Notes under the pieces: generated by a model
Seen by the model: only the letters and a program-made list of their open reading frames with translations
What the model was told of the DNA's origin: nothing
Databases searched by the model: none
Part shown: in pieces, positions 1,876-44,685 of the stretch
Layout of the letters: each line of letters opens with the position of its first letter
How positions within the stretch are numbered: the first letter of the stretch is position 1
Assembly: GCF_009676955.1 (NCBI RefSeq)
Contig: NZ_CP045696.1
Coordinates: 682,001-746,000 of the forward strand
Length of the DNA stretch: 64,000 nt
Reading direction: 5' to 3'
Source of the DNA: Sodaliphilus pleomorphus
GTDB taxonomy: Bacteria; Bacteroidota; Bacteroidia; Bacteroidales; Muribaculaceae
Translations under genes and position numbers: made by a program

Positions 1876-2053
1876 CTCTTACAAGGGGCGAATTTAAACA
1901 AAATCACTGATATACACAATAGTAGAAAACCTTTCTTTTAAAGAATTTACCCCCACCCCGTAAACGCAAGTTGAACAGCCATATATTCATATAGTTGATT
2001 CACAATAAAATGAGGAGAAAAAAGTAAAACGCGACACACTTAGGTTTGTAAAC
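1876..2053 (-). promoter_or_regulatory. CRISPR leader with degenerate repeat
   Basis: AT-rich stretch between the cas2 stop and the first repeat, the expected position of the leader and array promoter. At 1910-1930 the plus strand reads ATATACACAATAGTAGAAAAC, a decayed copy of the handle half of the repeat; on the minus strand its stem keeps four of five pairs. It is 34 nt from the first true repeat, about one spacer length. Confidence 0.7.
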
Positions 2054-3249: not shown

Positions 3250-3856
3250 GCAATTGAGCACAAAAATGGTACGCGTCGCTATATCTTATTGAGTAAACAT
3301 TGTCGGAGTCGGTTTTATCGCACAAATTGCAGTATATGCAATGCGCACATTTGTTTGGATTCGTCATCTTGGTGTCGTTTAATGGACTGTAGTTACGAAA
3401 CAGGGTTAGGAATCGTTCCAGTTCAACCCGATCATTCTCGGTGGGGAGATTGACCGGGATCATCTTTTTTGCAGAAATCTCATAAAAGCACAATTCCTCC
3501 ACAGGAAAGCCCATCTCGGTCATGCAAAAGTACTGAGCCCATAGCTGATAGAGCTGACCACGGAAGATGGTCTTGAGACTGTATTTGCGCTCAATGAGTT
3601 GTTTCTTTTCAGCTCGGTACACATCAATTTTTCCATAGACATGAAGGCTCTCACTATAGACGGAAAGCGACATGATATCACCCCTGCGCGAGCTACCCTT
3701 CTTGGAGTCGACACCTGTGTGTGCTATCGTTCCGCGCACTTGAGGCGTAGCCTTATACAAGCCATCATCGGTATCGGCATACACACTGTGCAAATAAATC
3801 GAATACGGGCAGAAAATGAAATCATTGAGCGTGGCTATAGCAATAAAATCCTCCAT
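3233..3856 (-). CDS. cas4: Cas4 nuclease
   Basis: RecB-family exonuclease of 207 residues with an iron-sulfur cluster, known from other systems to trim prespacers and select for the PAM. C16 (FIFCPYS) and the C-terminal group C170, C173, C176 and C179 (KCAHCIYCNLC) supply the cluster ligands. The PD-(D/E)XK core shows H46, D78 (KIDVY) and E89/K91 (ERKYS). It lies between cas12a (5-base gap) and cas1 (overlap), the normal type V-A order. Confidence 0.94.
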   Translation of the reverse strand: MEDFIAIATLNDFIFCPYSIYLHSVYADTDDGLYKATPQVRGTIAHTGVDSKKGSSRRGDIMSLSVYSESLHVYGKIDVYRAEKKQLIERKYSLKTIFRGQLYQLWAQYFCMTEMGFPVEELCFYEISAKKMIPVNLPTENDRVELERFLTLFRNYSPLNDTKMTNPNKCAHCIYCNLCDKTDSDNVYSIRYSDAYHFCAQLHGTHS

Positions 3857-3861
3857 TATTC

Positions 3862-6800
3862 TTACAAGTATGGTTTCTCCTGAGCGAATTCAAGCCAATC
3901 TTCATTTTTAATGGGAGCGAGCTGGATCTTTTCTGCATCAATTGAGCTTTGTTGAATCTGACGTAACAACATCAATCCTTTTCGTGCTATATTGAAAGCT
4001 CCATTGGCGTCGGCATTGGCAGGTAAAAGGCTACCGCAAGTTCGGCTGTCGAAAAAAATACCATCTTTATCAGCCACAGGGGATACAAGATAATCAATGT
4101 CAGTACCAGTGACACTATTTCGCATCTGCAAAGTGAGTTTTAGTAACTTAAGCAACGACTCATAGAAGTCTTTGACTGCAGAGGTTTCTTTAGTGAGCTG
4201 CCCGTTAACTATACGGGCTTTAAGTCCCGAAGCGATATCGATGCCATATTTGTTAAAGAGGTCTTTAAATGCTTGTGTGAGATCGAATTCCTCATTGTCC
4301 CAATGATTGCTTTTCTCGGGATTGCGAAAAGTGCGTACACGTGTCCCTTGGGTGCATAGTGTCCATTGAGTACGAGTTCCAGTAGGCTTGTTGGTAAAAT
4401 GACGATAATCAAAAGAAAACTCAAACCAATCACGCTCGTCATTGTAGCTTATGTCGTCAAATTTTTCAAAGAACTCCTTAGCTTTGGCTTCATTGCAGTA
4501 ACGAGTGTCAAAAAGGTTGACAAATCCAGTCACAGGATCAATCTTTGAAGTATTCCATGCTGGAATATAGAAAAGGAAACCGCTTTGCTTGCCCAGCTTT
4601 TTAAAACTATCCATTCTGCTCGTGAGTTGCAATGCGTGCAACAAGCCTCCTGGCTCGGCAGCATCATATTGCTTGTTGACTAAGTAGTTAAGCTTGTTGA
4701 TGAGCATGTGCTCAAATTTCTGATATACCTGCTTTTCCACTTTTTGCCTGCTACGCATGAACGAACCGTTCAAATCTTCAAGTACAACAATGGCATGATA
4801 ACGCTGCATGAGCATAGAGATCTTGTGGATTACCTGCGACAGATAGCCCTCTTTGAGTTCTTTTATGCTTTCAATAGTTTGCCAGTCTTGCCGGGCTTTC
4901 TTGTTGCCAGCTTCCTTCTCCTCAAGTAAGGTATGATAATTGGTGCAATAGGTATTACCCTTGTACTCGTTGACAATCTCGTTAAGCGAAAATTGCTCCT
5001 TAATAGTACCATGCTGGTCGATTATCACCAAGTAGAGCAAATTGCGCTCTCCACGGTCGATGCCTATGATGTGAGTGTCATCGCCTGCCGAGCGCAAATA
5101 ATCACACACCTGCTGATTGATGTTGTCGCTGCCAGTACACTTATAATTTATTGTTATAGGAACATGAAACATGAATTTATCAACGGTGTATCGGCGATTT
5201 TTAATAATGTCGTAGTCGAACACACACACACGTTTGGAGTCATTTTCGTTTTTGCAAGTAATAGGCTGATGTGCGGGGTGAGTAGGTCGATCGCACCTTA
5301 GGCTTGCCTTGCGGTAAAACACTTCGGCTTCACCATTGAGCTTATAAATAACATTGTGCAAGTTGCGCTCATCAAAGAGCATGCGCCAGTATAGGGTGTG
5401 CATGTTGGGTGTACCCTTGCTTTGGGGTGAAAAGTCCTTATTGTAGATTTGGAAAAGATATAGCTTGCCTTCGTCCACCATCCTGTTGACATAGTCAACA
5501 CTCACTTTTGTGAAAGAAAGGGAGTAACCCTGCTGATTAACATCACGATAAAAATCACTAATATTTGTATATGACTGAGTATCAGAGAACTTGAAGTTAA
5601 ATTTATTCCAGTCGGGATGCTTTGCTATAGAATCTTTATAGAAATCTATGAGAGCATGACAATCGTCGAGATTGAAATTATCACCTTTCTTAAAAGACTT
5701 ACTCTCCCAAATTTCAAGAATTTTCTTGCTCGGAGAGAATTCCTGCACTCTTGATTTGGAGAAGAACACCTTAGGAAGCATCTTGTTGGGACCCGGCAAA
5801 AGTTTATAAATCATTTTTTCGTAACAGTCTCCTATGGTTTCAACATTGTTGGCATCAAATATTTTATTATAGTTTTTATTCATGATGCCTAAGTAGTACA
5901 ACCCTTCGCGGCGCAAAATCACGCTTGTGTTATCATGCTCTTTGTTCAAGTCCCAGCCATTCAACAGCGTACTATTCTCGAAATTAAGTTTGATTTTTTC
6001 TTGCGAATAGGGTTTACGAGTCATTCGGTTTCGAACCTTGTTGTACAGCGGAGTGAGCTGGTCGAGAACTTCCCATATCGGCATAAAATCGCCATAGAAG
6101 AAACTATCCTTATCGCCCTCATCGCCACGACCAAGCAATGGCTTGACAAATCGCTGCAAGCGCTTGAGCGCATCAAGCAAGGCTTTGATTGCTTTAACCT
6201 TCTCAATATCCTGAGCCAAATTATGACTGCTTGGCCGAGCATTTAATATTGGAGCGGCCCCATGGTAAGCCTCAGCAATTTGATCGAAAATGTCGGGAGT
6301 CGTCTCTGCTTCGTTTTCACCCTCTTTTGCACCAAGACAAGCAAAGTAATCTTGAATCTTACACCTTATTCCTGCCTGCCCAAGGCACTGGTTGATATAA
6401 GCAATTGAGAAACTGTTCTGGGCAGAGAAAAGTTTTGATACACGCTCTTCAAAATCGGCACCAGTTTCTTTTTTCTTCTTCTGTACACTACGTTTCAAGT
6501 CACTTATCATGGCATCCTTTATTATATTCCAGCCACCGCACAGGCGCTGAGAAACTTCGGAGAGCTGCAAATCGTTGCGCAGGAACACTCCATCCAAATT
6601 GTAGCCGTCCAGTCCCATGAGTATTTGCTTGAGCTTGCCTTCGCCCAGCACACCAGTTTCATTACTATCAAGCTTGTTATAGAAGGCTTCTATTGTATCA
6701 AGCATGTCCTGGTCATTATCAAATTCATCCTGTAACCATGAAATGGCAACGCGATCGCTCAAGATCTGCTTATACAGCAGTTTCAGCATTGGCAAGCGCG

Positions 6801-7635
6801 CCTTTTTATGCTGCTGGTTATAAAGGTTAACATACTCATTGATGCCTTGTATTTTCTTGTTTCCCTCGCTCTTGCCTCCTATAACGGCATTATATACAGC
6901 GAGTTGTGACTGAGTCAGCACTTTGTTGAAAAATTGCAGGTTAAACATCTTATCGATGTCATCTCCAACCTGTAAGTGGCTCCTAAGCTCATCGGCTATT
7001 GTCTTAAAATGCTCTTGCATTTCGGGCACCTTGGCAACAATGTGAAATGCGTTGATATTGTCGATGAATTTGGGCAAGTTTTCGTTGATGATGCGGTAGG
7101 CAATAGCAGTAGATTTCGCATCAGATGTATACATGTTTTTGCGATTCTTGTGGAATTCCTGAAAATAGGTGGTGAAATCAGAAAACTCCTTTATCAGTTC
7201 AGTCTTAACTGGGTCGTTTTTTACAAAACTGGGCAAGTCTTCTTTGATGAGTTCTTTCTTGAAAAGTCTTTTAAACGCAGTATCGCCAGTAAACCTTTTT
7301 GAAATTTGCTTACGCAAAGCGACTTGGATATCCTCAAAGATTTTTTTTGTCTTATCGTTTCTCTTTTGCTCGTAGTAGAAAAAATATTCCTCAAGAGAAT
7401 CGTGTTTTCCCGTATCGTCATACTTCAGGGAGAAATCAGACAAGCACCGCTCGATAAATACCTTGTGGTACTCATCAATCAATTTTTTCATTTCCTTGTA
7501 GCTATCGGCACGATGCATATCGTTGTTCAGAATGCCCTCGCGTTTCATGTTCTCCACAGTAGATCCTTGTGGAATGAGCTCAAATCTTAAAGTCTTAGAC
7601 ACAGGATAAATGCCTGTAAAATCGGTATACTTCAT
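3862..7635 (-). CDS. cas12a: Cas12a (Cpf1) effector nuclease
   Basis: RNA-guided DNA nuclease of 1257 residues that processes its own crRNA, within the 1200-1350 range of the family. The start MKYTDFTGIYPVSKTLRFEL is the classic Cas12a N-terminus. REC lobe about 20-520; WED/PAM-interacting region about 520-830 with GWDLNKE and GPNKMLPKVFFSKSR. The RuvC triad is intact: D860 (HIIGIDRGERNLLY), E953 (VVLEDLNGSF) and D1209 (NADANGAFNIA). The bridge helix follows RuvC-I, and the Nuc domain lies at about 1030-1190. First gene of the cas operon; no missing residues were seen. Base composition is clearly more AT-rich than the core genes. Confidence 0.98.
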   Translation of the reverse strand: MKYTDFTGIYPVSKTLRFELIPQGSTVENMKREGILNNDMHRADSYKEMKKLIDEYHKVFIERCLSDFSLKYDDTGKHDSLEEYFFYYEQKRNDKTKKIFEDIQVALRKQISKRFTGDTAFKRLFKKELIKEDLPSFVKNDPVKTELIKEFSDFTTYFQEFHKNRKNMYTSDAKSTAIAYRIINENLPKFIDNINAFHIVAKVPEMQEHFKTIADELRSHLQVGDDIDKMFNLQFFNKVLTQSQLAVYNAVIGGKSEGNKKIQGINEYVNLYNQQHKKARLPMLKLLYKQILSDRVAISWLQDEFDNDQDMLDTIEAFYNKLDSNETGVLGEGKLKQILMGLDGYNLDGVFLRNDLQLSEVSQRLCGGWNIIKDAMISDLKRSVQKKKKETGADFEERVSKLFSAQNSFSIAYINQCLGQAGIRCKIQDYFACLGAKEGENEAETTPDIFDQIAEAYHGAAPILNARPSSHNLAQDIEKVKAIKALLDALKRLQRFVKPLLGRGDEGDKDSFFYGDFMPIWEVLDQLTPLYNKVRNRMTRKPYSQEKIKLNFENSTLLNGWDLNKEHDNTSVILRREGLYYLGIMNKNYNKIFDANNVETIGDCYEKMIYKLLPGPNKMLPKVFFSKSRVQEFSPSKKILEIWESKSFKKGDNFNLDDCHALIDFYKDSIAKHPDWNKFNFKFSDTQSYTNISDFYRDVNQQGYSLSFTKVSVDYVNRMVDEGKLYLFQIYNKDFSPQSKGTPNMHTLYWRMLFDERNLHNVIYKLNGEAEVFYRKASLRCDRPTHPAHQPITCKNENDSKRVCVFDYDIIKNRRYTVDKFMFHVPITINYKCTGSDNINQQVCDYLRSAGDDTHIIGIDRGERNLLYLVIIDQHGTIKEQFSLNEIVNEYKGNTYCTNYHTLLEEKEAGNKKARQDWQTIESIKELKEGYLSQVIHKISMLMQRYHAIVVLEDLNGSFMRSRQKVEKQVYQKFEHMLINKLNYLVNKQYDAAEPGGLLHALQLTSRMDSFKKLGKQSGFLFYIPAWNTSKIDPVTGFVNLFDTRYCNEAKAKEFFEKFDDISYNDERDWFEFSFDYRHFTNKPTGTRTQWTLCTQGTRVRTFRNPEKSNHWDNEEFDLTQAFKDLFNKYGIDIASGLKARIVNGQLTKETSAVKDFYESLLKLLKLTLQMRNSVTGTDIDYLVSPVADKDGIFFDSRTCGSLLPANADANGAFNIARKGLMLLRQIQQSSIDAEKIQLAPIKNEDWLEFAQEKPYL

Positions 7636-27727: not shown

Positions 27728-28384
27728 CTATTCAGGAGGAATATAACATGTGGCAGGAGCATTTATATATACCAACATATCTCTTTCTTTTATCCTCTGG
27801 CGAACTTTTTGATTGCCAAATGGATATATGTCGTCAAGCTGTTTGAAACAGTAAGGCCCTTTATATCGTAAAGTATCGGTATATTTTACTTTAATTTCAT
27901 TGTCGATTGTATTTACATTTGAACCAACACATATCCAAAGGTCTTGATAAGGAGCATTATCCACCACGAGGGTATCTCTGTGGAATGCCGTTATTTTGTT
28001 GTTTTCGCTTGTTTCTAAAACTTGCATTGAGTCGATATACCGCCATTTCCCAATATGAAAATTACGGTCAATGTCTCCCCCGAACTTTCGCCCGTGAGAA
28101 AAATACAAGTCAACAGCAAACGTCCCGTTAGAATAGAATCGGTATATGTTGTTTAATGGATGGTAAAGCAAGTACCCATGCTTAGGCTCGTCACACGCAA
28201 TGTAGACGACCCAATAACCAGTTTGACACAGCATCCTTTTAATACTGTTGGCCCTGGAAGCCTGTGCTCCAGAAATGCTTTTTGCCTCTTTGCTGGTTGA
28301 CATGTGCCAGCATGAGAAAAACGAGAAAATTGCCGTTACTGCCACAACCATTCTTATAATATGATCCTTTAGATTTGTCTGCAT
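27728..28384 (-). CDS. Hypothetical protein, paralogue of 28404-29090
   Basis: A 218-residue protein of unknown function. An N-terminal hydrophobic segment ending in FSFFSCWH (Cys about 25) may be a lipoprotein signal. The segment MLCQTGYWVVYIACDEP, YHPLNNIYRFYSNGTFAVDLY and KFGGD matches in order the corresponding segments of the next gene, so the two are tandem paralogues. It is markedly AT-rich compared with the flanking operons. The pair follows an RHS remnant on the same strand, so immunity proteins are one possibility; this is only context. Confidence 0.7.
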   Translation of the reverse strand: MQTNLKDHIIRMVVAVTAIFSFFSCWHMSTSKEAKSISGAQASRANSIKRMLCQTGYWVVYIACDEPKHGYLLYHPLNNIYRFYSNGTFAVDLYFSHGRKFGGDIDRNFHIGKWRYIDSMQVLETSENNKITAFHRDTLVVDNAPYQDLWICVGSNVNTIDNEIKVKYTDTLRYKGPYCFKQLDDIYPFGNQKVRQRIKERDMLVYINAPATCYIPPE

Positions 28385-28403
28385 AGCATTTTTCTTTTAT
28401 TCA

Positions 28404-29090
28404 TCATTGCACGATTTTATCTTCTTTTTCATAGTATGTCACAATGTGCACCTTGCCATTCGAATCACGCCTGTATTTAGTTTGAATCGCACTGTTCTGG
28501 CAGGAGCCATCATCGACAAAAAAGCTGTCGCCACCACTGTCGCTTTGCAAAAAAAGAATCTGGTCGTTATATTCAACATCAAGCTCATTTCTCACTTTAT
28601 TGAAATCAGTCCCTATATACACCCATATATCTCTGAACGGGCAAGCATCTACATACAAAGTGTCTTTTACCATCCCGACAAGCCTTGAAGGGCGCATGGC
28701 GCAAACAGTTTTTGTTGAGTCCTCATAGTGCCATTTCCATGAATAAAGCGCTGCTTTATCTTCTTTTACTCTCTTTACCTTGCCACCATAATTCTTTTTT
28801 GTGGAATCATACAAGTCACAACAAAGTTTCCCGTTTTTCATGAATCTCATAGCATTTGCTATTGGGTGATATACGATTTTTCCATTGCTGAGAAACCCAT
28901 CAGCCGTGTATATGATCCAGTATCCAGACCGGCACAACATGTTCACAATACTGTCACTGTCAGCATTTACAGTGCACATTTTGAATTGCACGTCAATATC
29001 GCCACTACTTGCTTTCCTCTTGTCTTGACAAGAGAATAATACAGTAAAAATTATGAGTGCAGAAAATAACAGATATATTGCTTTACTCAT
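28404..29090 (-). CDS. Hypothetical lipoprotein, paralogue of 27728-28384
   Basis: A 228-residue protein with a clear lipoprotein signal (IIFTVLFSC, Cys about 21). The body has MLCRSGYWIIYTADGF, YHPIANAMRFMKNGKLCCDLY and KKNYGGK, shared in order with its downstream paralogue 19 bases away, then a strand-rich C-terminal half (DTLYVDACPFRDIWVYIGTD versus DTLVVDNAPYQDLWICVGSN in the paralogue). Function unknown. Confidence 0.75.
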   Translation of the reverse strand: MSKAIYLLFSALIIFTVLFSCQDKRKASSGDIDVQFKMCTVNADSDSIVNMLCRSGYWIIYTADGFLSNGKIVYHPIANAMRFMKNGKLCCDLYDSTKKNYGGKVKRVKEDKAALYSWKWHYEDSTKTVCAMRPSRLVGMVKDTLYVDACPFRDIWVYIGTDFNKVRNELDVEYNDQILFLQSDSGGDSFFVDDGSCQNSAIQTKYRRDSNGKVHIVTYYEKEDKIVQ

Positions 29091-33936: not shown

Positions 33937-34572
33937 ATGATGGTGAAAAAGATTGTTTTGGCATTCTCTCTCATGATGGCCGGAGCCACATGGTGCAGCG
34001 CCCAAACTGCAACCGCGCCCCACAGCACCAACCAGCAGCAGTCGGGCACAATCGAGAAGCGCGACACTGTGCAACTGGTGGCAGTCGACAAAATCAAAGA
34101 CAAGAACACGCGCAAGCAGGTGAAAGCCCAGCTGGGCACCATGCGCTTCCAGAAGGCAGCCCGCGCCATGCGCGAGGGCTACTTTGTGCTCATGGCCAGC
34201 AGCGTGCGGCACAGTCCCAGCGGCGCCATCGACGCCAGTGCCGACGAGCAGGCCAATTTTGTGCTCGTGCAAGGCCACTCAGGCGTGTTTCAAACTGCCG
34301 GTCGCGGCATCAACCCCGGGCTCAACAACATGGGCGGCTTCACCTTCAAGGGCCGTGTGGGCAAGCCCACGTTCAGCTCCAACAAGAAGGGCGACCTCTT
34401 CATGAACTTCACCCTGGTGGGCAGCGACGTGAACTGCGACGTGTATATCACACTCTTCCATGGCAGCGGCGATGCCGAAGCCACAGTCACCCCGGCCATG
34501 GGACGCGGCAGCTTCACACTGCGTGGCAAGCTGCTCCCCTACAAGCAGCCCAAGCCCACATCTCCCCGTTGA
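33937..34572 (+). CDS. DUF4251 exported protein
   Basis: A 211-residue exported protein of the Bacteroidetes DUF4251 type. Signal peptide about 1-24 (MMVKKIVLAFSLMMAGATWCSA); then a helical segment and a beta-rich domain with DASADEQANFVLVQGHSG, GGFTFKGRVGKPTFSSNKKG and CDVYITLFHGSGDAEATVTP. The family has no assigned function. Start chosen at 33937 because a strong GGAGG precedes it. It stands alone, followed by an AT-rich gap before the 34.7-42.3 kb island. Confidence 0.8.
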   Translation: MMVKKIVLAFSLMMAGATWCSAQTATAPHSTNQQQSGTIEKRDTVQLVAVDKIKDKNTRKQVKAQLGTMRFQKAARAMREGYFVLMASSVRHSPSGAIDASADEQANFVLVQGHSGVFQTAGRGINPGLNNMGGFTFKGRVGKPTFSSNKKGDLFMNFTLVGSDVNCDVYITLFHGSGDAEATVTPAMGRGSFTLRGKLLPYKQPKPTSPR

Positions 34573-34711
34573 CGCCACTCCAACTCGCCCGACTGCGTCA
34601 CCCAACAAAAGGAGAATTGACAACGGATAACTTAATTAATCAGTTAATTGACTAATCAAACACTCAATATTGTCCGTCAGAAGTTCCTCACCAGAGGGAA
34701 AGATGCTGCAC

Positions 34712-35530
34712 TTATTTCACGAAAAGGAGAACTGTTGTGATTACACTTATAACCAGCTGAGCTATCAGCAAGATTTGAAGCGTTCCTACTTTTTTAGCTA
34801 GTTTCTCATTCTTGTTGACTAAAGTATTCTCTAATGTTCCGATCTTATTCTCGAGGGAAGAGTGCACATTATTGATTCGCCGAACAATAGCACTCTTAAT
34901 GTCTTCCAAATCTGTTTTACATTGTGCAAGTTCACTTAAGGTCTTTTTTAGGCCTGAGTCCAGGTCCATAATTGTAACATTTGCTTTATCAAGCGACTGG
35001 CCAATTGCAGAGATTTGGTTACTATCTTCGGCCTGTTTTGTTTTAATATCACCAACAGCAACATCTTGAGCTTCTTGCGATGACCTTAAATAATCATGTA
35101 AACTCTTAATTGAAAAAGTCAGTTCTGATATTTCTCTACTTATAGTAGAAGTTTTTTTTATAGCTTCGTTCAAATGTTCCACCTGATTATTAATCTTACC
35201 CACGCTTTCATCGCTAGCGATCTTGAAATCATTAGTCGTAGCAGTGAGGCCTGCCTTAGTTTCAGAAACGATGTTAGCACAGGAAGCATTTAAGTCCTTG
35301 ACTGCTTGTGTAGCTTGCTGGTCAATAACGACCTTATTGGATTTCAATAGCACTATCAAACTATTGAGTGCAGCTTGCACACCATTTAGTTTGGATGCAT
35401 AATTGTCAATCTCCCTTTGCGTTCCAGCATAAGCATTTACAGTTTTATTGACCTGCTCGCGAGCCGAATCAATATCTTCAAGCGACGCTTTCAATCGCTC
35501 TATGGTTTTAAATAGTTCATTGCTTTCCAT
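34712..35530 (-). CDS. Coiled-coil protein with C-terminal membrane anchor
   Basis: A 272-residue protein I do not recognise. Residues about 1-245 form long heptad-like helices rich in Asp, Lys, Ser and Asn (for example TTNDFKIASDESVGKINNQV), similar in character to methyl-accepting or laminin-like coiled coils. A single hydrophobic helix, TLQILLIAQLVISVITTVLL, ends the protein. No signal peptide, so it is probably tail-anchored. It starts six bases after the stop of the helicase gene and is the last gene of the island operon. In a defence module such a protein could be a membrane effector, but that is speculation. Confidence 0.75.
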   Translation of the reverse strand: MESNELFKTIERLKASLEDIDSAREQVNKTVNAYAGTQREIDNYASKLNGVQAALNSLIVLLKSNKVVIDQQATQAVKDLNASCANIVSETKAGLTATTNDFKIASDESVGKINNQVEHLNEAIKKTSTISREISELTFSIKSLHDYLRSSQEAQDVAVGDIKTKQAEDSNQISAIGQSLDKANVTIMDLDSGLKKTLSELAQCKTDLEDIKSAIVRRINNVHSSLENKIGTLENTLVNKNEKLAKKVGTLQILLIAQLVISVITTVLLFVK

Positions 35531-35536
35531 ATTTCT

Positions 35537-38500
35537 TTATTTTTTTAGATATTTTGCCTTAAAATTATCCAGCCAAGTAAGTTGATACTCAACTTCACTG
35601 ATTTGTTGCCATTCTTCAAGTTGTTCAAGACATTCACCTGTGACAGCGTTTTTCTCTTTTAATTTATTAATAAAAAGATCCATTTTGCTATAGAACTCAT
35701 CTAAATCAGTTGAGCGTCGCCTAAATTCCTTATATCCCATGATGAAACTATCGCGCAGTTCTCTGCGCAAATTATCGCTATCTTGTACATTTAAATATAA
35801 TAGGCAATAAACATTAAGAAAATCTAAAGCTGGATTTGTATCAGTAAGAGATCTCCTAATAAGACGCACAGCTCCTAACAGATGATTGATATTGTCTTTG
35901 GGTGAACCCGATGTGCCCACCACATCATCATCTACAACGTTCATGTATTTGAAAAGAATGCCATAGGAAGATTTTTTCCCATACTCCGTGTCGGCGGTTA
36001 AACTATATGGCACGTTTTCTTCTGTGACATAATCTTCGCGAGCGAACTTAGAATTGAAATAGTAATAAATGAAGTCTTTCAGTTCTTCATTTGTTTCAAG
36101 CCAGTTGTCGGGTGAATTAACCGCTTGCTCGCAGAAAGTTTCCATATCACGAATTGCACGCTCGCGTTTAGTGGCAATCTTGCTATAAACAAATTCGGTT
36201 ATATAGCCCAGACATTTCTGCATGGCATTTTGACCTTTATAATTAAAGGCATTGCGCATTTCTAAATCAGCGCGTTCTTCGGTATAATACCGCATGAGGA
36301 ACGTCTTTAATTGATTGAAGTATTCCTCATCACTCCTTCGTTTAGTGACAATACGAAATTGTTGTGTTGTATAATCTCGCGTGTAATCATCAATAATACC
36401 AACACAACACATTCGATATATTGCCTTTTCGATAGTTGCCACAAATTCGACCTCTCCATCCTTAACGTCTCGCGAATCTTTGAACACGAGTATTGGGAAT
36501 CCGTTTCTTCTTAATTGCGCGTTAAGGCGTTCAACAGACTCAGCATTAATTTGTGGCGAATATGAGATATACGAGACAAGCGGATCACCCTCCTTTGTGG
36601 CGAGCAGTTCCTCCATAAATCCAGACACTTGCTTGTGTTGGATTTTTGGGGAATCAGATGCTTCCTCATCAGAAACATCTGTTACTGATTGTGTGAGCAA
36701 ATAGTACATAATTCTTTTCTCAAAATCTTCCCCAATGAAGTTGTTGTCGAAAAAGAATTTATGCACACCATAATCAACTGCAACATTTTCCATAAGTCGT
36801 GTGCGAGGGTTTTGCTCCAAACATTCTTTGGGGCAGTATAAGATAGTGGCAAGTGCCATTTTTCTATCACGACCTGCACGACCAGCCTCTTGCACGAAAG
36901 CTTCAAGCGACCCGGAGAAGTTGATGTTGTAGGTGAATCGCACATTCGGCTTGTCAATGCCCATACCGAATGCTTTGGTTGCAACCATAATTGATGATTC
37001 TCCCCTAATAAACCGCTCTTGTTCTGTCAACACATCACCGCCAACATATCTGCTGACTTCTGCATTTTCCAATTCATCGGAAATTGAGTCAGCAACACCT
37101 GTATTACTCGCTGTACTTTTGACACCTAGACTGCCCCTGCGATGTGGGCAGAACACAATAGCAGCAGCTTTATTAGGTTCTTCAGCATACCAATCAGGAG
37201 CAACATCAATCGCCAAATCAGCGTTTTCTATTTCCTGCTTTATACTTTCATCTGTGATTGATTCACGCTCGATGAAGCGACGTTTTATCAGAGCAATATT
37301 TTCAGGCGATTGAAGTTTGGCAAGTTCCAAATGGCTACGTCTTATAACAGTCGGTAAGTAGTCATTCTTTTTCCTATATACATCCCATTTCGTAGGGCAA
37401 TCATAGCCATCAACTTGCACAACGTGATATTGCAATTCCAAACGATTAGTATTTTCATAACGAACAATCGCGTCACTATCGATTGGAAATGCTCCATTGC
37501 CTGACAACTCGCGTTCAACGTCGGCGAGGACATCGAATGAGGCAGTTGCAGTAAGTCCGAACAAAGAAAGATGTCGTTTCTCACCCTCTTTCTGTTTGGG
37601 AAGGACATATTGGTATAAGTTTCTGCCCAAATGCAGGTATGTAAATCTAAAGTCGTGTCCCCATTCCGAAACACAATGCACCTCATCAATTACTCCATAA
37701 GCGAAATAAACGCGAAGACTTTCCATGTTTCTCAATCTTGTTCTGAAACCGCGAATGCAAAGTCTTTCGGGTGATAAGAAAACAAACAACATTTTGGATT
37801 GTTCCATTTGTTCTTCCCGTACAGCCTTGTCATCAACTGTAGAATTGATGTAGGTGCAGCAGTCTATGCCGGCGTTAATCAAGCCATCGAATTGATCTTT
37901 CATTAGGGATATGAGGGGGTCAATAACAATGGTGATACCTGGTTGGAGCAAGGCTGCCAGTTGGTAAGTTAATGACTTACCGCTACCAGTTGGGAGCAGA
38001 CCAATGACCGGCAAATTACTCAATGCTCGCGTGAGAATTGGCAATTGACCGTTTCGGAATTTTTCTTTTCGGAACAGCAAGTTAAGGAAATAAGTCAGAG
38101 TGCTGACTTGCTCATGTTGCTCAATGAATGTGCCCTGCTCATTCTTAAGCACGAATGGCTGATAGTCAATGCGGTCTGTTGTATAGAAATATCGTTCAGC
38201 CGTTAAGTTATCATCTTCGGCAGAGAAAATGGCGAAATAGCAATCATTCTTTGCCCTGAATGTGCTAAAGTCAAAATCATTAACCTTAACGGCGGTTGAA
38301 TTATGAATTACTAAATCATATTCGTGTTCACGCAGGTCGTCAGTTATTTTGTCAGTGCGATAGCAATTCAAGTGTAATTTTGAATCAATGTACTGTTTTG
38401 ACCCAATAACATATAAGTTAATTTCAGGCAGTTTTAGATTTGCATATTCAGTGCTTATGCTTGTGATTGCATTGAACATTTGTTTGAAATCTTCAAATGC

Positions 38501-39766
38501 CAAAGCAGCACAAGGCACATCCTTTTCTTCAACCAATATATCCCATTCAGGTGCCAGCAAATCGAGCTTGCCAGAAATAAGAACTTCTACAATAAGTTTT
38601 TGGATTCGGGCAATAGCCGTTGGCGAATATCCTATTTCATCAAGTAAGTCATTGCCACTGAATTGAAGCTCTTGTCGGTCAAATGGCTCAATGCCTTCTG
38701 CATTGTTTGGGGCAAAACTAATTACACCGTTAGAACTTGTTTCTGAAATAAGATTTGTACCGCAAAATTGACGTTCGACGAATGGTGATACTTTTGTGGG
38801 CAGACCTCGCGTAATTATATTGTTAAGAACAGCCAAGATAGGGTGCATATCATCGCTGATACTTGCGCCCAAATCAAATGGAGCATATACATCGAAATAT
38901 GTCAAACGGTTGCTGTTCTGAACGAAGTGTTCCGCAACTGATAAGTCGTATGACGCACGGAATTGAATAGCTGGATAGAAAGCATATTTGATGATTTGCT
39001 GTTCGGCGTTAGCCTGCAACTTCAACACATTGATGTTGTAGGTATAACCTAACGACGATTTATCCGAAAGGATTTCCGACTTCTCAAATGCAAGCGGTCT
39101 TCTAAAATATCGCAGGAATGATTGTATACGCAGGTTACCACTAAGATAATAAGGGCTGACGCATACAAGCATATTGCTACACCGGTTATTCGCATATATA
39201 ATTTGCGATAGGTGTTTGAGGTCTATTCCACCTATATCAAGAATGTTAGAGAACATTTGATATACTGGGATTTGTCGCTCAAAAATAAGGTCAGAAGAAG
39301 TCACCTCGTTCAGCTTTTTGTTATGGCTTTTAACCTTGATGTCTTTGTCAAACAAGCCGATTAAAAACTTCGCTCTTTCCAATGCGACAGTAGATGGTTC
39401 AATAAGGATTACTTCTTTAATCCTGCATTGCAAATGTTTCTCTTTGATATAGTCAATCAAATAGAGTGTTGCTAAGCCTTGTCCACATGCCCAATCAATA
39501 ATATTGATTTGCGGTGGAAGCTGTTCGTTTATCAACGAGAAAGCTCTGTCTAGCTTGCCCTTATGCCAATCGACATAAGATGCGAGGTATGCGTCAAGTT
39601 GTATTTCTTCTGTATATATCGTATTGTCAATATCAGAACCTCCTTGATTGGTCAAAACCCAAGGTGTACGGCGATATTGCACTGGCAAAGCTTGCCGCGC
39701 CGCATCTCTAATTACACTGAGATTAAGATTGTGACAACTGCTTATTGTTTCTCTAAAGTTTGGCAT
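35537..39766 (-). CDS. Methyltransferase-like/RecQ-type helicase fusion
   Basis: A 1409-residue multidomain protein. Residues about 60-210 look like a class I SAM-binding fold: INIIDWACGQGLATLYLIDY (motif I, 88-107) and EVILIEPS (motif II). About 380-550 is unrecognised. A RecQ-like SF2 helicase spans about 560-985: GLLPTGSGKS (589-598, Walker A), DEVH (694-697), LTATA (738-742), FGMGIDKPNV, and QEAGRAGRDR (959-968). About 985-1409 is an unrecognised, largely helical extension. Start at ATG 39766, overlapping the DUF1848 stop by one base; a frame open further upstream is antisense-like Arg/Gln-rich sequence. No clear methyltransferase NPPY motif, so catalysis by that domain is uncertain. Confidence 0.85.
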   Translation of the reverse strand: MPNFRETISSCHNLNLSVIRDAARQALPVQYRRTPWVLTNQGGSDIDNTIYTEEIQLDAYLASYVDWHKGKLDRAFSLINEQLPPQINIIDWACGQGLATLYLIDYIKEKHLQCRIKEVILIEPSTVALERAKFLIGLFDKDIKVKSHNKKLNEVTSSDLIFERQIPVYQMFSNILDIGGIDLKHLSQIIYANNRCSNMLVCVSPYYLSGNLRIQSFLRYFRRPLAFEKSEILSDKSSLGYTYNINVLKLQANAEQQIIKYAFYPAIQFRASYDLSVAEHFVQNSNRLTYFDVYAPFDLGASISDDMHPILAVLNNIITRGLPTKVSPFVERQFCGTNLISETSSNGVISFAPNNAEGIEPFDRQELQFSGNDLLDEIGYSPTAIARIQKLIVEVLISGKLDLLAPEWDILVEEKDVPCAALAFEDFKQMFNAITSISTEYANLKLPEINLYVIGSKQYIDSKLHLNCYRTDKITDDLREHEYDLVIHNSTAVKVNDFDFSTFRAKNDCYFAIFSAEDDNLTAERYFYTTDRIDYQPFVLKNEQGTFIEQHEQVSTLTYFLNLLFRKEKFRNGQLPILTRALSNLPVIGLLPTGSGKSLTYQLAALLQPGITIVIDPLISLMKDQFDGLINAGIDCCTYINSTVDDKAVREEQMEQSKMLFVFLSPERLCIRGFRTRLRNMESLRVYFAYGVIDEVHCVSEWGHDFRFTYLHLGRNLYQYVLPKQKEGEKRHLSLFGLTATASFDVLADVERELSGNGAFPIDSDAIVRYENTNRLELQYHVVQVDGYDCPTKWDVYRKKNDYLPTVIRRSHLELAKLQSPENIALIKRRFIERESITDESIKQEIENADLAIDVAPDWYAEEPNKAAAIVFCPHRRGSLGVKSTASNTGVADSISDELENAEVSRYVGGDVLTEQERFIRGESSIMVATKAFGMGIDKPNVRFTYNINFSGSLEAFVQEAGRAGRDRKMALATILYCPKECLEQNPRTRLMENVAVDYGVHKFFFDNNFIGEDFEKRIMYYLLTQSVTDVSDEEASDSPKIQHKQVSGFMEELLATKEGDPLVSYISYSPQINAESVERLNAQLRRNGFPILVFKDSRDVKDGEVEFVATIEKAIYRMCCVGIIDDYTRDYTTQQFRIVTKRRSDEEYFNQLKTFLMRYYTEERADLEMRNAFNYKGQNAMQKCLGYITEFVYSKIATKRERAIRDMETFCEQAVNSPDNWLETNEELKDFIYYYFNSKFAREDYVTEENVPYSLTADTEYGKKSSYGILFKYMNVVDDDVVGTSGSPKDNINHLLGAVRLIRRSLTDTNPALDFLNVYCLLYLNVQDSDNLRRELRDSFIMGYKEFRRRSTDLDEFYSKMDLFINKLKEKNAVTGECLEQLEEWQQISEVEYQLTWLDNFKAKYLKK

Positions 39767-40836
39767 TATCTCCCTGTTATTGTTTCGGCGAATGGGTTTT
39801 CTTTGTGCGAGCGCAGGTTGGCGACGGCAAGTTCTTTGCTGGCGTTTGCATAGCAGTACTCGCAACCGTGAACACAAGTGTTGTATTCTCCGATGTCTTT
39901 GCTCTTGACGCAACCGCAGAAAAGGCGTTGTCCTTTGTCGCGGTTGTCGCCATGTGTGGCATATCTGCCACCAGGCAGCATGATTGCGCCATCGGGCAGT
40001 GGGTCGGTTTCGCCGAACAATCCTGCTTGCGGCATGGGGTGTATCTTAACATTTAGGTAGTCCATTAGGACTTTATCTTGATGCGCGAGACGGATGATTA
40101 AGTCATCGTCGACGCAGTGGTTTTTCTGTACTCCGAACTCTGTGAGGTCAATCTTTTCGCCGCAGGTCGCTAATTCATAGCCCCATTTATCGTTGAGTTT
40201 AGCTAGTTTCCCAGCGAACTCTCGCATTTGCTCCTCACTCCAATCAATGTAATGGATGTTGGCTTTCGTGAGGTTGTACTGCACCTTGCGGTAACTCACA
40301 ATGTCGGCAAAGCTGAATACCAGTTTCTCGGTGTAGCCGAACAGTTGGTTACCGATATTTTCAATTTTGGCAAGTAAAGTGTCAATGCTGATTTGCTCGG
40401 TAAGAACCAATGGGTCAAACCGCCAAATAACATGACCTTTGCCAAGTCGCTCGACGAGTTGTTTGAATATATCGATGCGTTGTGCAATGGGCGGTACGCT
40501 TTTTTCCAAGCCTTCGGCTTCATAGTCGTTTAGTGAGTACTGGATATAGCAGCCAATCCCTCTGCGTTCAAGGATTGGCAGATATTCAAGCAGAGGTCTT
40601 GGATTCTTAGACCAGAACACAATAAAACGTGTGTTTTGGTACGAAACATAACTGCGAACTCCGTTAAACGGGTTCGTCCATGCCGAGTAACCAGCTTTAT
40701 CAAGCCGATGGAAAAACCAGTCGGCATAAAACGCAGGAATGTCGGTACTGCGACTTGCCGACACGAGAACGGGAACTTGCATATCTACAAGTTCACCATT
40801 CTCGCGCGGCAGTTTCTTCTTATCCCAAGTTGCCAT
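39766..40836 (-). CDS. DUF1848 protein with C-terminal CX3CX2C motif
   Basis: A 356-residue protein of the DUF1848 type. VLVSASRSTDIPAFYADWF near residue 25 and NTRFIVFWSKNPRPL are typical. The C-terminus carries C-x3-C-x2-C at C321, C325 and C328 (CVHGCEYCYA), the spacing of a radical-SAM cluster, plus CGC about 15 residues earlier. The biochemical role of the family is unknown to me. It lies between the coiled-coil gene (5-base gap) and the helicase gene (1-base overlap), so it is translationally coupled to the helicase. Confidence 0.85.
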   Translation of the reverse strand: MATWDKKKLPRENGELVDMQVPVLVSASRSTDIPAFYADWFFHRLDKAGYSAWTNPFNGVRSYVSYQNTRFIVFWSKNPRPLLEYLPILERRGIGCYIQYSLNDYEAEGLEKSVPPIAQRIDIFKQLVERLGKGHVIWRFDPLVLTEQISIDTLLAKIENIGNQLFGYTEKLVFSFADIVSYRKVQYNLTKANIHYIDWSEEQMREFAGKLAKLNDKWGYELATCGEKIDLTEFGVQKNHCVDDDLIIRLAHQDKVLMDYLNVKIHPMPQAGLFGETDPLPDGAIMLPGGRYATHGDNRDKGQRLFCGCVKSKDIGEYNTCVHGCEYCYANASKELAVANLRSHKENPFAETITGR

Positions 40837-40841
40837 AGGCG

Positions 40842-42092
40842 TTAAAAATCAATATTTCCGTCTTTTATAACCTTGTCCTCAAGATAAGCAAGAACCTTTG
40901 CATGAAGTGCCTTGCCTTCTGTGACGATTGATGGCTCGTTCTTGCCTTGCCCAAAGAAATTTGAAGCGATTTTCAATTTCAAGTCTCTATACTTGGAGGC
41001 AAACAAATCAATTAAAAGAAGGCGCGGACTTGCATTGAGGTCGGCAAACTCCATTTTATACATTGAGTCTCGACCCTCAAAATTCGAAAAGCCCATAAAG
41101 CCAAGTCCGTCTCCAGTATTAACTGCAGATGAAACTGTATATTGAAATGCTTCGTGGTTAGTAAGCATTAAAAGAATACGGTTCTTGTATAGGTTGCAGT
41201 CCGTGGGCTTTTTATTGATAGCTTTGCTTATGAACAAGTATGCAAGACTCGCCAATTGTTGTTGGTCGTCAATATCTGAAATAGTGCCGAATGAAAGGAA
41301 AATCATTAAGCCCATGCCGTACTCTCCGTAATTTTGAATTTCAGAAAGTTGGGCTGGATCATAACGATAAGATCTCCATGCCTGGTACAAGGGATGGTAA
41401 GTGGCATCACCATCATTACCCATTTGTAACTGAGCCAATGCTTCATTTACAAATTTCTCTGTTTCCGTTAGTTCTTTCTTTGCGCATGTCGATGTAGCTT
41501 CTTGTTGTGAACTTCGTATTCTGTACTCCAAATCCACATTACGGTCATACATATGGAGAATACATTTGTCCACCTTGCCCTTTTTCAGGATGATCGAGAA
41601 ACCATAGTCAGACAAATCAATATCTTGCCAGCCAAAGGGAGTTTGCGCCGAAACTATGTAACCTTTCAGCAGTATCTCATTGTCAGAAATCTTTGCAACA
41701 CGCATAGGTTTGGCAGCGAATTGAGGTTGCCCAGTATCACCATTTGTAGCAGTGAGTATGTAACCGTCCCCATTCTTTAGATGATAACCACGGCAACCAT
41801 TTGTGTTCTTTCTGATTCTGATGAAACGTGGACACACCTGCAAATCTTTGACTGGTGTTCCGCTCTCATAACGTTGATGGCAGTTTGAATCAAAATCAAA
41901 ATTTGAAAGGATCGCCTCTTGACGTTCTTGTTCCTGCCGGTTGCGTTGTTCTTCAGCGCGACGGCGTACTTCGGCTTGACGACGTTGTTCCTCGGCATGG
42001 AGTCTCATCTCGGCTTCTTGTTTTAAGCGAAACTCCTCTTGGCGTTCACGTTCTATCTTCTTGTTTCCAAATAAAAAATCAAATAGACCCAT
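40842..42092 (-). CDS. Coiled-coil N-terminal hypothetical protein of the island
   Basis: A 416-residue protein of unknown function. MGLFDFLFGNKK is followed by a highly charged helix (about 12-65, Glu/Arg/Gln-rich heptads), then a beta-rich part (about 75-190; CPRFIRIRKNTNGCRGYHLK, GDGYILTATNGDTG) and a helical C-terminal half (about 205-415). The MGLF[DN]FLFG-type start is seen in several Bacteroidetes proteins fused to varied domains. I use ATG 42092; the frame opens at a TTG further upstream, inside the preceding small ORF. Five bases separate it from the DUF1848 gene. Confidence 0.75.
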   Translation of the reverse strand: MGLFDFLFGNKKIERERQEEFRLKQEAEMRLHAEEQRRQAEVRRRAEEQRNRQEQERQEAILSNFDFDSNCHQRYESGTPVKDLQVCPRFIRIRKNTNGCRGYHLKNGDGYILTATNGDTGQPQFAAKPMRVAKISDNEILLKGYIVSAQTPFGWQDIDLSDYGFSIILKKGKVDKCILHMYDRNVDLEYRIRSSQQEATSTCAKKELTETEKFVNEALAQLQMGNDGDATYHPLYQAWRSYRYDPAQLSEIQNYGEYGMGLMIFLSFGTISDIDDQQQLASLAYLFISKAINKKPTDCNLYKNRILLMLTNHEAFQYTVSSAVNTGDGLGFMGFSNFEGRDSMYKMEFADLNASPRLLLIDLFASKYRDLKLKIASNFFGQGKNEPSIVTEGKALHAKVLAYLEDKVIKDGNIDF

Positions 42093-42121
42093 ATCGTTAA
42101 GATTAGAAGGTTTGTGAATTT

Positions 42122-42289
42122 TCAGTCGATGTTCCAATAGGCTTCAGGGTCACCGTCGAAAGCGTCATAAATAGCATCATCACTGTAGCCCTCTACGTCT
42201 TGTGCAAAAGTGCCAGAAAAATCACCATAGTGTGAGCCGTAGTCATCATAATCAATCTCATAGTCTTCGTAGTCTTCATCGTAGTTCAT
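42122..42289 (-). CDS. Very acidic 55-aa protein at head of island
   Basis: A 55-codon frame, MNYDEDYEDYEIDYDDYGSH then GDFSGTFAQDVEGYSDDAIY and a short tail ending in WNID. It has about twenty Asp/Glu, nine Tyr and no Lys or Arg. It ends 29 bases before the next ATG on the same strand. Composition recalls DNA-mimic or histone-like acidic peptides, but it could simply be a small regulatory or linker protein. It is supported by position, strand and a clean reading frame, not by homology. Confidence 0.5.
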   Translation of the reverse strand: MNYDEDYEDYEIDYDDYGSHYGDFSGTFAQDVEGYSDDAIYDAFDGDPEAYWNID

Positions 42290-42660
42290 ATTTAGCAATC
42301 TTTAAAAGGTAATAATTTCAATTGTCAATATTTAAATTGCAATTTCCGTGCCAGACCTTATTGATCATCTTCCCATTAGTAAAATGTGATAGTATTAAAA
42401 CGGAGGGAAAATAAACTCTAAAGCAAAACTCAAATGGTCTTTTTCTAGCTTACATCGTCGCTGTGCTCTAACACATTTATGAGCGTCCGCTTCCTTTATG
42501 TGGACAAGATAGCTTTTCCTCGCCAATGCCGCATGGTGATTTACACATGATGTGAGCATCGCCAGTTTACACGTGTAGAAGAGTTACTCAAGACAGTCTG
42601 CTATCTGCTATGATACGGCTACTCATGAATTTCGAGATTTTTTGTTAGGACGCTATGGGC
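42290..42660. other. Gene-free gap between island and ligA
   Basis: No convincing gene. The island operon must be transcribed from here, but I find no exact TAnnTTTG box on the minus strand; the first 130 bases are AT-rich. The rest has no repeat, hairpin or tRNA that I can see. Confidence 0.6.
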
Positions 42661-44685
42661 TCACTGTAGCATTTTCAGGAATTCGTCCTCGCTCACGATG
42701 GGGATGCCCAGCTTGCGGGCCTTCTCCAGCTTGGCCGGGCCCATGTTGTCGCCGGCAAAGACAAAGCTGGTGGCCTTGGAGATGCTGCTCACGTTTTTGC
42801 CGCCGTTCTGCTCGATCATGGCCTTGTACTCGTCGCGGGAATGATGGGCGAAGACACCGCTTATCACTATTTTTTTGCCCTCGAGCTTGGTGGTGTGGCC
42901 GGCCAGCTCCTCCTGGCTGAGCTCCATCTGCAAGCCGGCCTTGCGCAGGCGCTCCACAATGTCGCGGTTGGCAGGCACCGAGAAGTATTCTACAATCGAG
43001 GCAGCTATCTTGGGGCCTATCTCGGGTATGGCAGCCAGCTGCTCGGCCGGCATGGCCATGAGCCGATCGATGCTCTTCACGTTGCGGGTAAGCACCCGGG
43101 CAGTGGTCTCGCCCACATAGGAAATAGAGAGCGCAAAGATGACACGGGCAAAGGGCACCTGGCGCGAGGCCTCAAGGCCTCGCATGATGCGCGTGGCCGC
43201 CTTGTCCTGGAAGTGCTCAAGCTTCACGAGTTGGGGCTGTGTGAGGTCGTAGAGATCGGCAATGTTGTTGACCAGGCCGCTCTCGTGCAGCTGCACAGCC
43301 ACCTCCTCGCCTATGCCGTCGATATTCATCGCGTGGCGCCCCACAAAGTGCTCGATGCGGCCCGTGATTTGCGGCGGGCACTCATACTTGTTGGGGCACA
43401 CCCAGGCAGCCTCGCCCTCCACGCGCTTGAGCGGCGTGCCGCACACCGGGCAATGGGTCACAAACTTCACGGGCTGGCTGCCCGGTGCACGCCGCTTGAG
43501 GTCGACGCCCACTATCTTTGGAATGATTTCTCCGCCTTTTTCTACATAGAGGTAGTCGCCGTCGTGGATGTCGAGCTGGCGTATGATGTCCTCGTTGTGC
43601 AACGAGGCGCGTTTCACAACGGTGCCCGAGAGCTGCACCGGGTCGATGTTGGCCACAGGAGTAATGACGCCCGTACGCCCCACCTCGAACGAGATGTAAC
43701 GCAGACGCGAGCATTCACGCTCGGGAGCAAACTTGTAGGCAATTGCCCAGCGCGGAGCCTTGGCTGTGCTACCCAGGGTGGCCCACTGCTCGATCGAGTT
43801 GAGCTTAAACACCAAGCCGTCGGTGGCAATGGGCAGGTTTTTGCGCTCCTTGTCCCAGTAGTTGATAAAATCAACCACCGAGTCGATCGATGGCAAAATG
43901 GTGTGCCCGGCCACCTTGAAGCCCCAGCGTTGCAAGGCCTCCATGCGCTCAACATGGGTGGATATCGCAACTTGGTCGCCCAGCAGGAAGTAGAAGTAGG
44001 CATCAAGGCCGCGGCGGGCCACCTCGGCGCTGTTCTGCATCTTCAAGGTGCCGGCGGCGGCATTGCGCGGGTTGGCAAAGAGGGGTTCCTCGTTGTACTG
44101 GCGCTCCTTGTTGAGCCGCTCAAAGTTTTTCCAGGGCAGCAATATCTCGCCGCGCACCTCAAACTTTTCGGGCCAGTCGCCAGGCTGCAACTGCAAGGGC
44201 ACGCTCTTGATGGTGATCACGTTGGCCGTCACGTCGTCGCCGCGCACGCCGTCGCCGCGGGTCACGGCACGCACCAGCCGCCCGTGCTCGTAGGTGATCG
44301 AGATGCTCGTGCCGTCGTATTTCATTTCGCCCACAATCTGCACCGGCTCGCCTCCCAGGCCATCCTTGGCACGGCGCAGGAAATCCTGCACCTCCCCTAT
44401 CGAGTAGCTGTTGCCCAGGCTCTGCATGGGGCGCTCGTGCACCACCTGCTTGAAGCCCTGGCTCAAGTCGCTGCCCACGCGCTGAGTGGGCGACAGCGGG
44501 TCGAAGCACTCGGGGTGCGCCTTCTCCAAGTCCTGGAGCTGTCGCATCATGTGGTCATAGTCCTGGTCGCTTATCACAGGCTGGTTGAGCACATAGTAGT
44601 TGTAGTTGTGGCGATTGAGCTCGTCGCGCAGTTGCTTGATGCGCTTCACATCCTGCTCGTTCTGGTCGGCAAATAAATCATCCAT
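42661..44685 (-). CDS. ligA: NAD-dependent DNA ligase
   Basis: The replicative NAD-dependent ligase, 674 residues. It has the Ia domain that binds NMN (about 1-70), the adenylation domain with VGEMKYDGTSISITYEHG, where the Lys of KYDG is adenylated, then the OB fold, a zinc finger with CPVCGTPLK and CPNKYECPPQ, helix-hairpin-helix repeats and a C-terminal BRCT domain (VISGVFAHHSRDEYKAMIEQNGG). I start at ATG 44685 (MDDLFADQNEQD); a GTG three codons earlier is also open. Not coupled to any neighbour. Confidence 0.97.
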   Translation of the reverse strand: MDDLFADQNEQDVKRIKQLRDELNRHNYNYYVLNQPVISDQDYDHMMRQLQDLEKAHPECFDPLSPTQRVGSDLSQGFKQVVHERPMQSLGNSYSIGEVQDFLRRAKDGLGGEPVQIVGEMKYDGTSISITYEHGRLVRAVTRGDGVRGDDVTANVITIKSVPLQLQPGDWPEKFEVRGEILLPWKNFERLNKERQYNEEPLFANPRNAAAGTLKMQNSAEVARRGLDAYFYFLLGDQVAISTHVERMEALQRWGFKVAGHTILPSIDSVVDFINYWDKERKNLPIATDGLVFKLNSIEQWATLGSTAKAPRWAIAYKFAPERECSRLRYISFEVGRTGVITPVANIDPVQLSGTVVKRASLHNEDIIRQLDIHDGDYLYVEKGGEIIPKIVGVDLKRRAPGSQPVKFVTHCPVCGTPLKRVEGEAAWVCPNKYECPPQITGRIEHFVGRHAMNIDGIGEEVAVQLHESGLVNNIADLYDLTQPQLVKLEHFQDKAATRIMRGLEASRQVPFARVIFALSISYVGETTARVLTRNVKSIDRLMAMPAEQLAAIPEIGPKIAASIVEYFSVPANRDIVERLRKAGLQMELSQEELAGHTTKLEGKKIVISGVFAHHSRDEYKAMIEQNGGKNVSSISKATSFVFAGDNMGPAKLEKARKLGIPIVSEDEFLKMLQ

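Follow-up and report, generated by a model that had tools for sequence, protein, structure and literature searches.

Among described systems, those closest to the locus treated here are type I BREX, Dpd, type I or single-chain restriction-modification (R-M), the "RTasDUF1848" type of DRT and the TerY-P triad-associated DNA-processing systems (Anantharaman et al. 2012, as cited in the CoCoNuTs paper, PMC11090510). The locus is an island of five tightly packed open reading frames (ORFs), named A to E, all on the minus strand at positions 34,712-42,289 of a 64,000-nucleotide stretch of the Sodaliphilus pleomorphus chromosome (hereafter the window), in which B joins a methyltransferase-like domain to a RecQ-like helicase, C is a DUF1848 protein and A is a coiled-coil protein with a hydrophobic end. 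Relatives of the module formed by these genes lie inside type I BREX operons, between pglX and pglZ (six loci), whereas the island's five proteins have no match to PglX, PglZ, BrxC or BrxL (PADLOC, E up to 0.1), only a weak one to the BrxHI helicase (0.0012). Dpd is approached through B, whose best PADLOC match is DpdF (4e-71, through the RecQ core), but B reaches only 104.1 bits against the cut-off of 550 for the NCBIfam DpdF equivalog, and no other Dpd protein is matched among the five except for a weak DpdJ helicase match (0.011). The long relatives of B resemble type I or single-chain R-M enzymes in joining methyltransferase-like, PD-(D/E)XK-like and helicase parts in one chain; the methyltransferase and helicase families of the module are different ones, however, its usual partner is DUF1848 or AlkB, the version in the window has no nuclease domain, and the island showed no specificity subunit. 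C matches the DUF1848 model of the DRT type (PADLOC, 2.5e-40), but a reverse transcriptase was not found among the five proteins with Pfam or PADLOC. Kinase, PP2C and vWA-type genes (vWA assigned by eye) adjoin the module in two relatives (L099 and L108), as in the TerY-P systems, and were not seen at the window locus.

The module as a whole seems not to have been described, at least within a literature search that covered few subscription papers. That search found no paper on "DUF1848", the terms AlkB, 2OGFeDO, radical SAM, RecQ, photolyase and dioxygenase are all absent from the main text of a 2026 BREX survey (PMC12839542), and none of the searched terms was found in PMC12458937. The domains are each known, while their combination, the exchange of DUF1848 for AlkB and the insertion into BREX were not found described in the literature searched.

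The unit that recurs in other genomes is a core made up of the helicase and the coiled-coil protein, to which DUF1848 or AlkB is usually added where a methyltransferase is present. Relatives were gathered with the helicase or its N-terminus as query, and never with DUF1848, from 393 order genomes, 297 family genomes and the best 80 of 165 loci in named species genomes (32 regions were fetched from the order-genome matches and 38 from the family-genome matches), giving 151 loci, of which 142 were used after removal of nine duplicates with identical helicase stretches. Genes in these loci were called with a greedy longest-ORF script, and partners were named by one Pfam run per cluster. They hold 90 deduplicated long helicases, the window's included, 64 with the methyltransferase domain and 26 without it. 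DUF1848 or AlkB lies nearby (at most four genes upstream or three genes downstream of the helicase) for 55 of the 64 methyltransferase-type helicases (DUF1848 for 44, AlkB for 16) vs. 0 of the 26 others, an association with a Fisher probability of 2.4e-15 that is not corrected for relatedness and is inflated by related sequences. The same tie is seen for methyltransferase proteins that have no helicase part (fragments included), 45 of 51 of which are near DUF1848 or AlkB, and in two loci (L210 and L067) DUF1848 and the methyltransferase share one open frame. A member of the A cluster, in turn, follows directly after 73 of the 90 helicases (50/64 with and 23/26 without the methyltransferase), and 72 of these 73 members have, within their last 45 residues, a hydrophobic stretch whose mean hydropathy exceeds 1.6. 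Among the 14 methyltransferase-type helicases that have no A-cluster gene next to them, seven stand at a contig end and five are followed by another gene with a hydrophobic end, which leaves two loci (L102 and L205) with neither.

Around this unit the module varies considerably. Between the methyltransferase and the region we call MID, 19 of the 64 methyltransferase-type helicases contain a PD-(D/E)XK-like domain (DUF559/MTES_1575), which 11 of the 26 others have near the N-terminus and which is missing from the B of the window. In L111 the methyltransferase is fused instead to a UvrD-type helicase (886 aa), and eight proteins of 864-901 aa fall into the same sequence cluster. A second type of module, with clusters that recur in 13 to 15 loci, has an unfused methyltransferase, a separate UvrD-like protein and an ADP-ribosyltransferase/ADP-ribose glycohydrolase protein (Pfam, L240). 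In L240 (6375-9154), L229, L231, L233, L242 and L244 we observe AlkB, in some cases DUF1848, a UvrD-like protein, an ADP-ribosylation protein with 2CompART and 2CompARG domains and a 490-aa methyltransferase; in L125 and L128 the methyltransferase gene is present as separate parts, close to a DUF1848 gene that is intact. The name AlkB is given to a cluster of which the one member run against Pfam matches 2OG-FeII_Oxy_2 at 2.7e-34 and in which the HxD...H...R pattern is kept in 26 of 26 members, duplicates included.

C belongs to Pfam PF08902 (DUF1848) (8.6e-89, with 298.3 bits vs. a gathering score of 30.5). An alignment of 27 DUF1848 homologs shows seven invariant cysteines, the last three of which form a CX3CX2C motif at the C-terminal end. 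The NCBIfam family PA0069, of SPL-like radical SAM proteins, is matched by 23 of these 27 at E up to 1 and PF04055 by 15 of the 27, each match being weak singly (best 3.9e-4 and 0.0041, respectively). The segment around the motif gives a much clearer result when compared with the PA0069 profile, aligning over 26 columns with an E of 3.9e-11 and a score of 56.3 vs. a maximum of 17.1 in 40 column shuffles. The PA0069 family carries the same cluster motif near its N-terminus, unlike the C-terminal place it has in DUF1848, and a circular permutation of DUF1848 relative to the SPL-type enzymes would explain this difference in position.

The helicase of B is RecQ-like, not RecQ proper, to judge by its profile matches. 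It matches Pfam DEAD (7e-15) and Helicase_C (4e-9), and NCBIfam recQ at 8.7e-66, under the curated cut-offs (222.6 of 640.2 bits for TIGR01389 and 204.6 of 219.8 for TIGR00614). The motifs GSGKS (594), DEVH (694) and QEAGRAGR (959), which we take to be Walker A, DExH and motif VI, are present, and B also holds DWACGQG and LIEPS. Its methyltransferase domain, a candidate for the class I SAM fold, is weak in single sequences; Methyltransf_31 is matched in 22 of 35 homologs (E up to 0.1), and in 35 aligned methyltransferase-like sequences, in which no catalytic motif is assigned, D91, W92, C94, G95 and Q96 are invariant and LIEPS is largely conserved. A search of the PDB with the methyltransferase profile gave only YecO and tRNA (cmo5U34)-methyltransferase, both weak (E 0.026-0.69). 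The MID region is common to the helicases without a methyltransferase, and the DUF559/MTES_1575-like nuclease comes directly before it in some relatives. A itself has coiled-coil-type matches only (Pfam, PADLOC and NCBIfam); the earlier note saw in it a possible membrane effector, but A may equally be an anchor or a sensor.

D and E are best explained as optional accessories, with D, like A, changing fast. Neither ORF matches any model of Pfam, NCBIfam or PADLOC at E up to 0.1. D, which has 416 aa from its MGLFDFLFG start and 431 aa from an upstream TTG, has 450 homologs in a protein database search; its family stands near 5 of the 64 methyltransferase-helicases (the window included) and in L118 adjoins DUF1848 and a methyltransferase. 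E, of 55 aa from its ATG (58 aa from TTG in the mechanical ORF), has 18 small homologs in the protein database that are 55-98% identical to it. The 141 other loci yielded no free-standing 55-aa E gene, but an acidic C-terminal tail like that of E (...FDGDPxxYWNID) occurs there on two longer ORFs beside related modules, one of 173 aa on the opposite strand, adjoining the methyltransferase gene (L129:8689-9210), and one of 505 aa just upstream of AlkB (L235:3985-5502), so that E may be a free-standing version of this tail domain. An obligate five-gene system was considered and rejected, since D is near only 5 of 64 helicases and the tail of E in only 2 of 141 other loci. Of the set that the earlier note had proposed to look for in other Bacteroidales, a four-gene version (D family, DUF1848, methyltransferase-helicase and coiled-coil protein) recurs in Mediterranea sp. 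An20, a Tannerellaceae metagenome-assembled genome (MAG) and a second Muribaculaceae genome, as well as in a Prevotella MAG, where two further ORFs are present.

The island appears to be an exchangeable occupant of the DUF4251-ligA junction, because the closest genome of the genus sampled (G673, locus L247) keeps the flanking genes and their order to the left and right of it and lacks the island. This comparison, which the earlier note had proposed, rests mainly on that one relative. To the left it has TonB-receptor-like, hemerythrin-like, LuxR-like and DUF4251-like genes (named by eye or by the earlier note) and to the right ligA and seven further ORFs, with a flanking identity of 69-96%. Its junction is filled with 2.2 kb of other content (L247:11453-13671) holding ORFs of 164 aa and 360 aa, the longer of which looks like an Rpn/PD-(D/E)XK transposase-like protein, with no PADLOC match. 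In G703 (L258) a DUF4251 gene, 31% identical, lies about 35 bases from ligA. Among 13 other relatives, L258 included, two (L248 and L250) have DUF4251 and TonB genes nearby in a different arrangement, and ten have no matched neighbor besides ligA, except for one short fragment.

Base composition and phylogeny agree with a foreign origin. The GC content of the island is 0.412 vs. 0.577 to its left and 0.571 to its right, and GC at third codon positions is 0.34-0.53 in its genes vs. 0.76-0.88 in the five flanking genes checked; this bears out the earlier note, in which the set is an AT-rich island that differs from its neighbors in base and codon use. In a midpoint-rooted tree of 35 B N-termini, the window falls within a six-row group (support 100/100) whose other rows are from Bacteroidaceae, Prevotellaceae and an unclassified Bacteroidales MAG, so that the nearest five rows are not Muribaculaceae. 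The Muribaculaceae-type rows L201 and L202 join this group via a branch of length 2.0, and L186, also Muribaculaceae, is elsewhere in the tree. A related methyltransferase region is found in 35 of 297 family genomes (E up to 1e-15), which is a patchy distribution. An ordinary chromosomal operon is disfavored by GC content, the N-terminus tree and the island-free junction. Identity between the window and Mediterranea (L169) is 70% for B and 80% for C, and 36% for A and 30% for D; such a difference in rate would fit a role of A and D as the parts that face a changing partner.

The surroundings of the relatives give the defense role, which the earlier note had proposed from gene architecture, a measure of contextual support. 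The six BREX loci are those of Robertkochia (L187), Saccharicrinis (L193), Lewinella (L199), Flavobacterium (L203), Gillisia (L215) and Algibacter (L244), the last with a module of the UvrD/ADP-ribosylation type, and in some of the six a few other genes also stand between pglX and pglZ. BrxB, BrxC, PglX, PglZ and BrxL were confirmed with PADLOC in L203, and the BREX genes of the other five loci were assigned via sequence clusters shared with it. Type I R-M subunits are adjacent or within two genes in five loci (L037, L206, L208, L218 and L227). The HsdR gene close to the module in L227 has immediately upstream of it a gene for a SoFic-type Fic protein (69-1217, 3.4e-118). DUF1848 with a methyltransferase also occurs in two viral contigs (the same match) and in one unverified phage record, and a Moraxella plasmid (L336:1619-7338) carries a viperin, further genes and then a methyltransferase with AlkB. 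Residence of the full-length type on a plasmid or phage was considered and rejected, since coverage of the N-terminal query reaches 80% in no record; no E. coli match was found either.

Taking these observations together, we lean, with a confidence slightly above even, towards a mobile, defense-associated module for nucleic-acid processing. The gene contexts support the association with defense, while the base chemistry is conjectural; contacts among the proteins, DNA as the substrate, the direction of the chemistry and the restriction of phage are what we infer. In such a module the methyltransferase-like domain of B would ride on a RecQ-like motor that unwinds or tracks along invader DNA, A would bind B and tether it to the membrane, and C, a presumed base-acting iron enzyme (replaced by or joined with AlkB in relatives), would act together with the methyltransferase domain on the bases, from which it would remove a protective or abnormal modification or into which it would introduce a lesion. 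Some sisters have a nuclease in the same polypeptide; B of the window has none, so that any damage would have to come from the chemistry pair or from a co-resident restriction system. A more specific form of this proposal, which we regard as unlikely, is that the effector position, held in some sisters by the PD-(D/E)XK nuclease, has passed to base chemistry, so that the methyltransferase and a circularly permuted SPL-type radical SAM enzyme (DUF1848) or AlkB, on a membrane-tethered RecQ-like motor, would rewrite or strip the bases of an invader's DNA rather than cut that DNA. DUF1848 has no function assigned in Pfam, and its tie to the methyltransferase, its interchange with AlkB and its placement in BREX would make it a testable base-acting enzyme in a defense setting. 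If it is true that the module strips or alters the bases of an invader, it would offer a defense against phages whose modified DNA shields them; a base-altering effector of that kind was not found described in the literature searched, and the module may be part of an undescribed defense family.

A number of results weigh against a defense module of this kind. The BREX or R-M context accounts for 11 of 142 loci, a minority, and PADLOC has no model for the gene set, in which it matches only generic models for RecQ (DpdF and others) and for DUF1848. The main role known for AlkB and SPL-like enzymes is the repair of DNA or RNA, not attack. D is rare, with matches in 9 of 297 family genomes and 4 of 386 order genomes, several of them partial. 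Nine of the 64 methyltransferase-type helicases have neither DUF1848 nor AlkB, and eight of these nine, from three Tannerella loci and five loci of one Muribaculaceae genus, have neighbors that are largely shared, which looks like a settled chromosomal role. (The three Tannerella loci, L044, L223 and L226, encode a methyltransferase-nuclease-helicase with a coiled-coil partner, each beside a 1,073-aa gene.) The independent occurrence of the genes, which the earlier note had named as speaking against a joint system, is found in part: a phylum-wide search for DUF1848 was positive in 35 of 198 genomes, and the methyltransferase is missing beside DUF1848 in all 30 loci inspected (flanks of 1.5 kb), of which 29 belong to one family. 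Finally, profile comparison gave no significant match for a radical SAM barrel in DUF1848, a barrel-only profile scoring 19.1 vs. a best of 24.6 and a mean of 16.3 in 60 shuffles, and in global mode DUF1848 permuted at residue 300 scored 4.1 vs. 49.1 for the unpermuted sequence. Circular permutation, as a candidate, thus has strong support for the motif and none for the barrel, with the global-mode control opposed to the permuted order; in an earlier run nearly all permutations had the same score, from the motif alone, and so gave no support for it, and a PDB sequence search with DUF1848 returned chance-level matches only.

Much of the same evidence could be accommodated by a mobile cassette for the repair or tolerance of DNA damage, in which AlkB and DUF1848 would reverse base lesions, the helicase and the exonuclease III-type protein of L099/L100 would process the sites, and the benefit would come under genotoxic stress, not phage attack. 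The 2OG-FeII_Oxy_2 match and HxD...H...R pattern of the AlkB-like cluster, the likeness of the DUF1848 motif to PA0069/SPL-type proteins, the Exo_endo_phos gene that adjoins DUF1848 in L099/L100 and the RecQ type of the motor would all suit it. We nevertheless consider it somewhat unlikely in view of the insertion into BREX and the nearby type I R-M genes in some relatives, the nuclease-like domain in part of the sister helicases and the patchy distribution among family genomes.

That the target is RNA instead, with the methyltransferase and AlkB/DUF1848 editing or repairing tRNA or another RNA (for example one damaged in infection), seems distinctly unlikely given that the RecQ-like motor is of a DNA helicase family, that the inserted domain matches nuclease-type families and that some neighbors in relatives are DNA restriction systems. 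It would account for the solved-structure matches of the methyltransferase profile and for the one context with a viperin, and AlkB enzymes can act on RNA. A helicase and coiled-coil pair that serves ordinary genome maintenance in Bacteroidota, with DUF1848, AlkB, D and E as hitch-hikers, would be consistent with the coiled-coil partner of 23 of the 26 helicases without a methyltransferase, none of which has DUF1848 or AlkB nearby, as well as with the shared neighbors in Tannerella and one Muribaculaceae genus. However, a split of 0/26 vs. 55/64 is not what hitch-hiking predicts, and DUF1848 and the methyltransferase occur in fused frames and, with AlkB as the alternative partner, also without the helicase part, which makes this explanation very improbable.

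The features described above are located in the window as follows.

Table 1. Position of the island's genes, of the domains of their products and of the junction that holds them, in window coordinates.
Feature	Position	Strand	Basis
E, 55-aa acidic protein	42122..42289	-	ORF list
D, 416-aa protein, charged coiled-coil-like N-terminus	40842..42092	-	ORF list, homolog search
C, DUF1848 protein, 356 aa	39766..40836	-	Pfam PF08902
CX3CX2C motif of C, residues 321-328	39853..39876	-	Alignment, profile comparison
B, methyltransferase-like + MID + RecQ-like helicase, 1,409 aa	35537..39766	-	Pfam, PADLOC, NCBIfam
Methyltransferase-like part of B, residues 1-360 (boundary approximate)	38687..39766	-	Homolog Pfam matches
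MID region of B, residues 361-555	38102..38686	-	Common to helicases without methyltransferase
RecQ-like SF2 helicase core of B, residues 556-1000 (boundary approximate)	36767..38101	-	NCBIfam recQ
A, 272-aa coiled-coil protein	34712..35530	-	Coiled-coil-type matches, gene neighborhoods
C-terminal hydrophobic (membrane) segment of A	34718..34780	-	Sequence
DUF4251-ligA junction holding the island	34573..42660		Comparison with G673 and G703

The five ORFs were found where the earlier note had placed them, with gaps of 29 (E-D), 5 (D-C), -1 (C-B) and 6 (B-A) bases when ATG starts are used (B, for instance, has 1,409 aa from its ATG and 1,458 aa as a mechanical ORF), and they are taken to be real genes because each protein has relatives elsewhere. 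A repeat search over 34,400-42,800 found no direct-repeat pair at both edges, and excision via flanking repeats was therefore rejected. No integrase was seen among the window ORFs by inspection, the flanking ORFs not having been run against family libraries, and a promoter scan found sites in no higher number than in shuffles.

The genome of the window is a single contig of 3.34 Mb. Two other AT-rich stretches were observed in the window. One, at 27728-29090, encodes adjacent proteins of 218 and 228 aa that look related by eye. The other, 27 kb from the island, is a type V-A CRISPR locus (916-7635) with a repeat array at about 916-1876, Cas1, Cas4 and a Cas12a of 1,257 aa.

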